From Nanobdellota archaeon (lineage in GTDB: Archaea > Nanobdellota > Nanobdellia > Woesearchaeales > SM23-78), in assembly GCA_018819305.1 (NCBI GenBank), contig JAHJQO010000022.1, forward strand, positions 1 to 33,469: a DNA stretch of 33,469 nt, in the 5' to 3' direction. Positions 15,813-18,480 of this stretch are shown piece after piece. Positions within the stretch are counted from its first letter, which is position 1. Every line of letters begins with the position of its first letter. A program made the translations under genes and the position numbers. The notes under the pieces are model-generated. The model had not been told where the DNA came from, searched no databases, and worked only from the letters and a program-made list of their open reading frames with translations.

Positions 15813-16542
15813 TTATCTTATTAAAAGCAACATACCGCTTAGTAGAAGTATTCCGGCAACAATTCTTCTGTAGAGTTCTTGGTTTAATTTCAAATAAATC
15901 CTTGAACCAATAATTGTGGCTATAATAACAACAGGAATCATAAACAAACTTATTTTCAATATTTCAGTGTTAAACACATTTGTAAAATAAAACAGCGCAT
16001 TTCTCCATATTCCCACAGGTATAAAAATTGCTATCAGAGTGCTTCTAAGAATTTGCTTGTCTTTAATCTGATTACTAAAGAAAATAGTTAATATTGAGCC
16101 ATCAATAGACAACAATCCTCCTGTAATACCTCCTAAAAACCCAAAAATGATTCCAAATGCAGATTTTAGTTTTCTGAAGGAAATATGATTTTCAAAAAAC
16201 ATTCTTAATGAGAAAATAATTATCAGAATGGCAAAAATTATTTTCAGAAGATTGCCTTCTACTGAAGCCAAAAGCAATACACCTATGATTGTGCCCAAAA
16301 AAAGTTCCTGCTAAAACATAAAATAAACCTTTCCAATATATTTTCTTTTTTATTGAAGGAAAAAGAAGCAAACCACTAACTAAGCTAAGTATGGATATTA
16401 CAGGAACCACTAATCTTATATCAAAAAAAAGAACTAATAAAGGCACTGAAAAGATACCTGATGCAAAACCTGTCAGGGCTTTGATAAAATACCCTATCAA
16501 TATTATAACAGCAAAAATCAGTATGATCTCTGTTGTAGTCAT
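15813..16542 (-). pseudogene. TauE/SafE-type permease, interrupted by a frameshift in a 7-T run
   Basis: Two overlapping frames together encode one TauE/SafE (sulfite/sulfonate exporter-like) membrane protein. The first part (from ATG at 16542) reads through LTGFASGIFSVPLLVLFF and reaches LAGTFFG, then runs out of frame. The rest (ending at 15813) begins GTIIGVLLLASVEG and includes FLGGITGGLLSIDGSILTIFF. Removing one base from the T7 run (plus-strand A's at 16297-16303) joins them as AGTFLGTIIGVLLL, giving 242 residues with about 8 membrane helices and no other defect. It overlaps the RNase Z stop by 4 nt, so it belongs to that transcript. It could be a sequencing error, recent inactivation or a slippage-controlled gene. 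Confidence 0.75.
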
Positions 16543-17441
16543 AATTTCACTTTCATAAAGTCATGCGCTGTCCTGCTGTTTTGAAAGAATGTCTTAATCT
16601 CTTCTTTGAGTTCTTTGTCAGTCTTGTATCTCTGGGAGAAATGAGTGATTATAAGTTCTTTGACATTTGCTCTGGTTGCAATTAATCCTGCATCTTTGGT
16701 TGTCATATGCTTGTATTCTGCTCCTTTTTCTTCTAAATCAGATGTATAAGCTGATTCAGCAATCAAAAGGTCTGCGTCTTTTGCCAAGTTATATGCATTA
16801 GTACAAGGCTGAGTATCTAGAACAACAGATAATTTCTTGCCTGTTTGAATATGAGAAACATCATCTGGATTAATTGTTTTGCCTTTGAAAGTAATGCTTT
16901 GCCCTCTTTGCAGTTTGCCTACTTGAGGCCCTTCTTTAAGACCAATTTTTTTTACTTTAGCCATATTTATTTTTCTTTTGTCTTTATCAATTATACTGTA
17001 GCCTAAGCAGGGCATTCTGTGATCTAAAGAAGCACATTCAATATAATAATCATTGTTTTCAAATATTTTTTCAACACCTTTTGGATTGAGCTCATTTATT
17101 TCAATCTCAATCCTGTTATTTTCAAAGCTAACTGCTTTTAACAGGTGGAATATTCTTTCTTTAGTTTCCTTAGGACCATAAATTGTGACTTTCTGAGGGT
17201 TTTCATTATTACTAATTGTTTGAAGCAATCCTATCAAGCCACCAACATGATCTCCGTGCCAGTGTGAAATCAGTATTTTCCGAACTTTATTTCTGTTGAT
17301 GCCTGCAATATTCATCTGCCTTTGTGTGCCTTCACCACAGTCTATGAGAATGCCTTCTCCTTTGTATTCTACATAAATGGATTGTACATTTCTCTCTTTT
17401 GTTGGCACCATACAACTCGTACCTAACATTATAATTTCCAT
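16539..17441 (-). CDS. rnz: Ribonuclease Z (tRNA 3'-end endonuclease)
   Basis: A metallo-beta-lactamase-fold tRNase Z of 300 residues, the usual length of the short form. MLGTSCMVPTKERNV at the N-terminus and the zinc motif H60-W-H62-G-D64-H65 are present, followed by GGLIGLLQT. The later ligands are in ASLDHRMPCLGYSI and LIAESAYTSD, and the final ligand in ELIITHFSQRY. It trims 3' trailers from pre-tRNAs. The frame is open to a GTG at 17474, but the family starts at the ATG 17441 (MEIIMLGTS), and AT-rich TATA-like sequence lies about 26-36 bp before it. It shares an upstream region with the divergent EndA gene, another tRNA-processing nuclease. Confidence 0.93.
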   Translation of the reverse strand: MEIIMLGTSCMVPTKERNVQSIYVEYKGEGILIDCGEGTQRQMNIAGINRNKVRKILISHWHGDHVGGLIGLLQTISNNENPQKVTIYGPKETKERIFHLLKAVSFENNRIEIEINELNPKGVEKIFENNDYYIECASLDHRMPCLGYSIIDKDKRKINMAKVKKIGLKEGPQVGKLQRGQSITFKGKTINPDDVSHIQTGKKLSVVLDTQPCTNAYNLAKDADLLIAESAYTSDLEEKGAEYKHMTTKDAGLIATRANVKELIITHFSQRYKTDKELKEEIKTFFQNSRTAHDFMKVKL

Positions 17442-17559
17442 GATTCGATGTGATTGTGTTTTGCTTTTTAACACTTTTTAAATAAAAATTATTTTCTATA
17501 TTGAAAGAATATCTGATTTACAAAGATTTTTAAAGCAAACACGACTGCTTAGGAACAAC

Positions 17560-18480
17560 ATGGTAGAGAAAAAAATCATAACAGAAGAACCTTCTGAGCC
17601 ATCAAAAACAAAGTTTTTGAGTGCCAAAGGTAAACCTTTGAGCATTTCTTCAAAGAAAAAAACAGCAAAAAAAGCAGAGACTAAGAAGAAAACAAAAGCC
17701 AAAGCTTTTGAATCAACAAAGGCAAAGCCTTTGAGTGCCAAAGATGAATCTTTGAGCACTTCAACAGAATTGAAGAAAACTGTAAAGAAAAAAGCTGCAA
17801 AAAAGAAAGAAGCTGAACCTAAAACAGAGGATAAAGCAGAAGAAAAAGTAGAGGATAATACTGAACTTAAAACTAATTCTGAATCACCAAAGACAAACTC
17901 TTTGGATGCCAAAGATAAATCTTTGAGCACTGACGATAAAAAACAAAAATCAAAAGAAATAATCAAATCACTCTTTGCCAGAGAAAGAGTTCTGACAGAA
18001 GCCACAGATGAAGCTCGTAATTTATTCAACAAAAGTGCTTATGGAAAAATAATAGAAGAAGGCAAAGTGCAGTTATCATTGCCCGAAGCACTTTATCTCT
18101 TGGAAAAAGGCAAACTCCAAATATCTGATGGGAAAAAAAAATCAATGAGCGCAGAGGATTTTATTAAAAAAGCAAGAAAAGCAGAACCAAACTTCTGGAT
18201 AAGATACTGTGTTTTTAAGGACATGCGAAACAGAGGATACATAATCAAGACAGCTCTGAAGTTTGGAGCAGATTTCAGGGTTTATGACCGTGGAATAAAG
18301 CCAGGAGAAGACCATGCAAGATGGATAATTTTTCCAGTACATGAAGGAGAAACCCTTACCTGGTATGAATTTGCAGCCAAGAACAGAGTTGCTCACAGCA
18401 CTAAAAAAAGACTAATGATGGGAATAGTAGATGACGAAGGAGATGTCACATACTATGAAATCAAATGGATGAGACCCTGA
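17560..18480 (+). CDS. endA: tRNA-splicing endonuclease EndA with long lysine-rich N-terminal extension
   Basis: 306 residues. The last ~180 form a complete alpha-type archaeal splicing endonuclease: an N-terminal domain (LSLPEALYLLEKGKLQI) and the catalytic domain with the triad Y242 (VYDRG), H252 (GEDHARW) and K282/K283 (AHSTKKRLM). It cuts introns at bulge-helix-bulge sites in pre-tRNA. Residues 1 to about 130 are extra, a low-complexity Lys/Ala/Glu linker containing three related peptides (LSAKGKPLSI, LSAKDESLST, LDAKDKSLST). At DNA level this linker is built of hairpins (see repeat entries). It is divergent from rnz, so two tRNA-processing nucleases share one intergenic region. A TATA-like TTTTTAAAG lies near 17526-17534. 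Confidence 0.92.
   Translation: MVEKKIITEEPSEPSKTKFLSAKGKPLSISSKKKTAKKAETKKKTKAKAFESTKAKPLSAKDESLSTSTELKKTVKKKAAKKKEAEPKTEDKAEEKVEDNTELKTNSESPKTNSLDAKDKSLSTDDKKQKSKEIIKSLFARERVLTEATDEARNLFNKSAYGKIIEEGKVQLSLPEALYLLEKGKLQISDGKKKSMSAEDFIKKARKAEPNFWIRYCVFKDMRNRGYIIKTALKFGADFRVYDRGIKPGEDHARWIIFPVHEGETLTWYEFAAKNRVAHSTKKRLMMGIVDDEGDVTYYEIKWMRP
17603..17646. repeat. Double-hairpin unit 1 inside endA
   Basis: Hairpin A is CAAAAAC-AAA-GTTTTTG (17603-17619). It is followed by AGTGC and hairpin B, CAAAGGT-AA-ACCTTTG (17625-17640), then AGCATT. Both stems are perfect 7-bp stems, and AGTGC can also pair with GCATT (one G-U pair), closing hairpin B. Translated in frame as part of the EndA linker. Confidence 0.7.
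17693..17760. repeat. Double-hairpin unit 2 inside endA (with an extra hairpin)
   Basis: An extra hairpin, CAAAAGC-CAAA-GCTTTTG (17693-17710), precedes hairpin A, CAAAGGC-AAA-GCCTTTG (17717-17733). Then come AGTGC, hairpin B, CAAAGAT-GA-ATCTTTG (17739-17754), and AGCACT. All stems are perfect. The outer AGTGC/GCACT arms pair around hairpin B with one bulged A. Confidence 0.7.
17887..17931. repeat. Double-hairpin unit 3 inside endA
   Basis: Hairpin A is CCAAAGA-CAAAC-TCTTTGG (17887-17905). ATGC follows, then hairpin B, CAAAGAT-AA-ATCTTTG (17910-17925), and AGCACT. From 17901 to 17931 it is 28/31 identical to unit 2 (17730-17760) and in the same reading frame. Confidence 0.7.

Follow-up and report, generated by a model that had tools for sequence, protein, structure and literature searches.

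To our knowledge, Rickettsia and Wolbachia are the main groups in which palindromes that code for protein in frame have been described, and we know of no established mode of movement for them. Rickettsia palindromic elements (RPE) are 100-150 bp in length, are found both in and out of genes, and are inserted in frame (PMC10969869, PMC3767692).

The stretch of DNA analysed here (the window) was one contig of 33,469 nucleotides from a Woesearchaeota MAG (source genome G000, 1.53 Mb in 57 contigs). The closest relatives with a name are likewise Woesearchaeota MAGs, SM23-78 being one of them. Short palindromic units were identified in the endA gene of the contig. These units are most probably copies of a mobile DNA element, small and non-autonomous, which has spread through the genomes of a Woesearchaeota genus and looks like a previously undescribed archaeal counterpart of RPE. 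The element is a chain of two to six short perfect hairpins of the form CAAAnnn-loop-nnnTTTG, joined by near-fixed linkers (AATCAA or AACCAT, AGTGC, AGCA(C/T)T). Copies in coding sequence measure about 45-90 bp, and those at start codons about 55-150 bp. A literature search, which left most subscription journals outside its reach, returned no paper that treats elements of this kind in Woesearchaeota or other DPANN.

Repeat units of the endA gene

The endA gene (17560-18480, plus strand) encodes a tRNA-splicing endonuclease of 306 aa, with the Pfam domains tRNA_int_endo_N at residues 137-201 and tRNA_int_endo at residues 212-298. The conserved domains (17968-18453, plus strand, from Pfam and ortholog comparison) are the part in common with the orthologs that carry no units. 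All units lie within residues 1-125, a Lys/Glu-rich N-terminal extension outside both domains. A metallo-beta-lactamase-like gene resembling RNase Z (16539-17474, minus strand) is divergent from endA, so the two tRNA-processing genes may share the intergenic region.

Three units were distinguished, all on the plus strand. Unit 1 (17582-17658) is composed of hairpin 0 (17582-17596), hairpin A (17602-17620), a GTGC linker, hairpin B (17625-17640), AGCATT and hairpin C (17645-17658); its core peptide is SKTKFLSAKGKPLSIS, and it was matched by the covariance model at 17582-17648 with 77.7 bits. Unit 2 (17693-17775) contains hairpin 0 (17693-17710), AATCAA, hairpin A (17717-17733), AGTGC, hairpin B (17739-17754), AGCACT and hairpin C (17759-17775), with the core peptide STKAKPLSAKDESLSTS and a match of 91.2 bits at 17693-17762. 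Unit 3 (17887-17931) has hairpin A (17887-17905), ATGC, hairpin B (17910-17925) and AGCACT, with no clear flanking hairpins; its core peptide is SPKTNSLDAKDKSLST and its match (17871-17933) scored 60.3 bits.

Seven perfect hairpins had been reported in the endA linker by the first-pass annotation, and all of them were found, each with a stem of at least 7 bp (17602-17620 with 8 bp, 17625-17640, 17693-17710, 17717-17733, 17739-17754, 17887-17905 and 17910-17925). Three extra 6-bp hairpins (17582-17596, 17645-17658 and 17759-17775) were added, which makes units 1 and 2 four-hairpin units and extends the repeat feature from 17582 to about 17933. Six of the seven do form three A-linker-B units as described, with the linkers AGTGC, AGTGC and ATGC followed by AGCATT, AGCACT and AGCACT. 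The proposed AGTGC/GCACT pairing held in part: it is perfect in unit 2 only, whereas unit 1 has a single G-U in AGTGC/GCATT and the pairing of unit 3 is limited to TGC/GCA. The statements on copy-specific serine codon choice were correct, and the matched stem changes do alter amino acids, with residues varying along with the paired changes (KGKPL, KDESL, KRKLL). The EndA units could not be given exact insertion boundaries, since the ortholog extensions are low-complexity and give no alignment.

The number of stems in the linker was never equalled by chance. Synonymous-codon shuffles that kept the same protein and the same codon set (2000 trials) gave 0-4 stems and codon-order shuffles gave 0-2, against 7 observed; in the remainder of the 33-kb window, 20 perfect stems of at least 7 bp were counted. 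The RNA folding z-scores of the three units were -4.0, -4.8 and -5.1. An mRNA structure specific to endA, which had been offered as an alternative, is not supported, because the unit occurs in unrelated genes and is absent from endA of the examined genus relatives.

Dispersal among genomes and protein tails

The core pattern CAAA-N5-13-TTTGAGTGCCAAA-N5-13-TTTG occurred 14 times in G000 and 8 more times in three of six same-genus genomes, and the reversed pattern, used as the control, had 0 matches in both searches. The genomes compared were metagenome assemblies. With the covariance model (R2) at E<=0.1, the matches in the seven genus genomes were 61, 66, 61, 31, 13, 3 and 0 (61 in the source genome), counts inflated by some weak matches that are both strands of one place. 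At the order level, 103 of 241 genomes matched the model at E<=0.01, and in a phylum-wide sample 58 of 279 did so at E<=0.001, with 54 of these from the genus or order and four from the same class. Scores drop to 28-52 bits outside the genus, where the hairpin chains keep AGTGCC and GAGCA linkers; these chains are treated as having a looser relationship to the genus element. In other families of the order, GTGC/GCAC linkers were observed in chains of three to six hairpins (L101 in G187, L089 in G171 and L103 in G103), and the chain at L089 is in frame within a charged protein tail. A distinct chain type, TCAACAAAATCTTTGATTTTGTGTCYCAAAAGCTTTGCTTTTGTGA, recurred near gene ends (L197, L198 and L290), and may be another subfamily or a terminator.

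A viral origin was rejected, as the core pattern had no match in viral contigs, and a known RNA family was rejected too, as Rfam at gathering score gave no match in the 63.9 kb searched (the window and the element loci). The same core sequence is present in the unrelated genes of EndA, aIF2-gamma and FKBP, and several copies are intergenic or downstream of genes. The unit is present elsewhere in the genome and in the genus, and is present or absent as a block, in line with the mobile repeat that the first-pass annotation had suggested.

A total of 15 coding copies were found in ten genes, all read in one frame and all in charged, low-complexity tails outside Pfam domains. The hosts are EndA (3), aIF2-gamma, the FKBP C-tail, GrpE (2, in tandem, 87 bp apart), a Lys-rich protein (2), an AAA_22 ATPase, the S3 C-tail (2) and the S6e C-tail, and in G002 prefoldin alpha and FtsY; they were identified by Pfam, except the Lys-rich protein, which had no Pfam match, and FtsY, which was named from sequence. 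The copies read as a peptide of the form (S/T)KxKxLSAKxxxLS, for which a predicted example in EndA or aIF2-gamma is AKPLSAKDESLS. One minus-strand frame is also open in the coding copies, yet all of them use the same frame. Orthologs without the unit exist within the genus for EndA, GrpE, aIF2-gamma, S6e, prefoldin, S3 and FKBP. The boundaries of coding copies are not exact because the sites lie in charged, low-complexity tails, and the target duplications described below apply to the start-codon copies, the flanks of coding copies being low-complexity. It is unlikely that the unit is spliced as an archaeal intron, given that all coding copies are in frame. A weaker hairpin pair was observed in frame at L204 (contig C46 of G000, 1742-1810), inside a protein rather than in a tail; by its sequence the host looks like an Elp3-type protein.

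Copies at start codons

A second form of the element was identified at start codons, where it is flanked by direct repeats, mostly of 4-7 bp, which include the start codon. The old Shine-Dalgarno sequence and start are kept on the left, the direct repeat with the start codon stands on both sides, and at the right end a new Shine-Dalgarno sequence lies in the loop of the last hairpin, with a new TTG or ATG in the 3' arm. The element brings its own Shine-Dalgarno sequence and start, and the old start is left behind as a short leader ORF. The FKBP gene of G002, in which the element is present, reads AAAA[TGCT]TACAAC...GGAGGTGTCATTT[TGCT]AAAGAAG, and that of G000 (...TTTAAAATGTTAAAAAAGGG) represents the empty site.

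This plan was observed in EF-1beta (direct repeat TGGCAA), an AAA_22 gene (TGGTTAC), a nucleotidyl transferase (TGAAGG), S3 and NDK of G003 (TGATTG), DnaK (ATGGCA), FttA, Spt4, NAC (a short direct repeat) and a TPP enzyme (an imperfect direct repeat). A site before S4 has a direct repeat and no long Shine-Dalgarno hairpin (S4 was named by eye, on a fragment with no Pfam match), and S2 has no repeat beyond TG. The hosts EF-1beta, NDK, DnaK, FttA, Spt4, NAC and S2 were assigned by Pfam. When direct repeats anywhere up to 260 nt upstream were scanned, element-bearing starts were no different from control starts, and therefore a position-restricted permutation was used. For 14 sites, a list partly gathered by eye, the flanking repeats had a summed length of 70; over 100000 permutations the mean was 39.7 and the maximum 63, and 0 of them reached the observed sum. 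With the wide scan null and the restricted test positive, the direct-repeat effect is therefore positional.

Almost identical elements of 109 bp were observed before S3 and NDK of G003 (L074 and L068), on different contigs, with starts that share ATGATTGA. In S3 of G006 the element is diverged, and its linker pair GTGC/GCAC is changed to GTTC/GAAC. Tandem start-codon elements were present at L291 and L052 of G002. In each pair a long unit precedes a shorter one without the middle hairpins, and the same start-codon repeat bounds both, a layout that suggests duplication of units and loss of internal hairpins.

At 9 of 15 sites, the leader ORF that begins at the old start has its end no more than 8 nt from the new start, and at L052 and L055 the leader reads the element in the frame of the coding copies. 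A leader ORF that ends near the next start is an arrangement which permits termination-reinitiation in archaea (PMC6728339). Alternatively, the hairpin chain could be a regulatory RNA, acting on translation and chaperone genes as a translational regulator in the 5'-UTR or leader ORF, and the coding copies would be leaders fused into N-terminal extensions. The Shine-Dalgarno sequence in the hairpin loop with the start in the 3' arm, and the frequent ending of leader ORFs at the new start, which resembles termination-reinitiation (PMC6728339), are consistent with such a role, as are the hosts, mostly genes for translation, folding and transcription, and the conservation of one 5' copy between G002 and G003 and of orthologous 5' copies (L047/L050; S3 in G003 and G006). 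However, the presence of the element varies between orthologs (S3, FKBP), coding copies are found in C-terminal tails too (S3, S6e, FKBP), several copies lie between or downstream of genes, and hairpin A has no G-U pairs. Regulation could account for a possible use of some copies and not for their dispersal, and it is unlikely to be what the element is.

Stem upkeep, proposed mobility and known systems

Stem complementarity is kept while the stem sequence changes. Across 21 copies, taken from four species, each of the inner four pairs of the A and B stems had 9-10 double changes, and no pair was broken. The covariation score of the whole structure in the 21 copies was 0.247 against 0.118 +/- 0.011 in shuffles, and 0 of 500 shuffles reached it; the mobile in-frame palindromic repeat of the first-pass annotation, like RPE or double-hairpin elements, is thus supported by the codon-shuffle, dispersal and covariation tests together. 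Stem variants of hairpin A include GGC, AAC, AGC, ATC, GAC, GTC and ATT. Among the best 47 distinct matches, 324 of 328 pairs of hairpin A are Watson-Crick, with 0 G-U, 3 A-C and 1 other, in an alignment fitted to the covariance model, which favours pairing and still permits G-U. The weaker matches have 1 G-U against 611 Watson-Crick pairs in hairpin A, and G-U is commoner in hairpin B and hairpin 0. Matched changes were also seen in hairpin 0 of otherwise similar copies (CAGAAAC/GTTTCTG, CAGAAGA/TCTTCTG and CAGAATC/GATTCTG). That hairpin A lacks G-U suggests upkeep of a perfect palindrome at the level of DNA, and not by selection on each host mRNA.

Mutation bias would be another way to such stems: template switching in replication would perfect small inverted repeats with no selection, and chains would grow and move by slippage. 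The 47 copies free of G-U in hairpin A, the matched changes of hairpin 0 and the tandem long-plus-short units of L052 and L291 all fit with it. Slippage alone, however, cannot carry near-identical units with the same linkers to unlinked genes, so this explanation is very improbable, while a template-switching bias is compatible with the mobile-element reading as its maintenance step. A Ser/Lys/Pro linker motif duplicated for a function in the protein, with palindromes as a by-product, would agree with the one frame and similar peptide of all coding copies, and can be dismissed as hardly credible, since non-coding copies contradict it, the stems are lost on synonymous shuffling of the identical peptide, and the residues differ where stem pairs co-change.

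For the mobile element, movement would be by target-duplicating insertion, driven by some activity, and insertions would persist where they are harmless. One kind of tolerated site would be the disordered charged tail, where the element is in frame and read as a hydrophilic Ser/Lys/Pro peptide, and the other would be the gene start, where translation is rebuilt. Perfect palindromy would be kept at the DNA level, either needed for mobility or restored by hairpin-templated repair. It is conceivable, with the balance falling slightly against it, that this is a new class of archaeal mobile element, which inserts at and duplicates start codons, rebuilds translation through its own Shine-Dalgarno hairpin and start, and turns the old start into a coupled leader ORF, with related copies that colonised tails in frame and stems that some mechanism keeps perfect at the DNA level.

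No candidate mobiliser among transposases, integrases or relaxases could be linked to the element. Y1 transposases (Y1_Tnp) were present in two of the seven genus genomes and none was found in the element-rich G006; their loci had no element-like ends. The distribution of reverse transcriptases does not track the element either. Because of these distributions both families were set aside as mobiliser, and the partner search, which covered the Y1 and RT families, found no parent transposon. The sole Y1 transposase match of G000 (L317, contig C57) has an in-frame TGA.

With its dozens of copies, its start-codon mode, its target duplications and the sites that are empty in sister species, an archaeal counterpart would offer a comparative system for insertion, tolerance and stem upkeep. 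If the reading is true, small hairpin elements reshaped the tails and leaders of core genes (S3, aIF2-gamma, EF-1beta, DnaK, FKBP, EndA) in a DPANN lineage, and they also affect how gene starts are predicted in these genomes.

Prokaryotic MITEs and the RU repeats of enterobacteria resemble the element in being small and non-autonomous, with ORF fusions possible (PMC10969869, PMC2759123). As in MITEs, the direct repeats at start-codon copies look like target duplications (0 of 100000 permutations), whereas no terminal inverted repeats spanning the element were seen when the archaeal copies were read. REP/REPIN of bacteria are likewise dispersed, hairpin-forming and non-autonomous, with compensatory stem changes (PMC3116915), but REPINs are extragenic and RAYT-linked, while coding and start-codon copies are common here and the element-rich G006 yielded no Y1 transposase.

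The mitochondrial hairpin elements of fungi, sponges and algae are also small, AT-rich hairpins, paired or clustered, scattered, and sometimes within genes without frameshift (PMC2800124). Hairpins A and B, adjacent and joined by AGTGC, recall double-hairpin elements, but the archaeal element has two to six hairpins in an ordered architecture and resides in a cellular archaeal genome. In the sponge elements it is the loops that vary and the stems that are conserved, whereas here the linkers are fixed and the variation lies in the inner stem bases.

With the palindromic elements of Rickettsia and Wolbachia the element has in common short palindromic repeats, both coding and non-coding, in frame in many unrelated genes, with a conserved peptide (PMC10969869, PMC3767692). 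It differs in its host, a Woesearchaeota archaeon, in having several short hairpins in a chain, where the stems vary and the linkers are fixed, in its copies at start codons, which have direct repeats and a ribosome-binding site of their own, and in a peptide confined to charged tails. Compared by description, and without being classed as an RPE, the archaeal element looks like a system that works in the same way.
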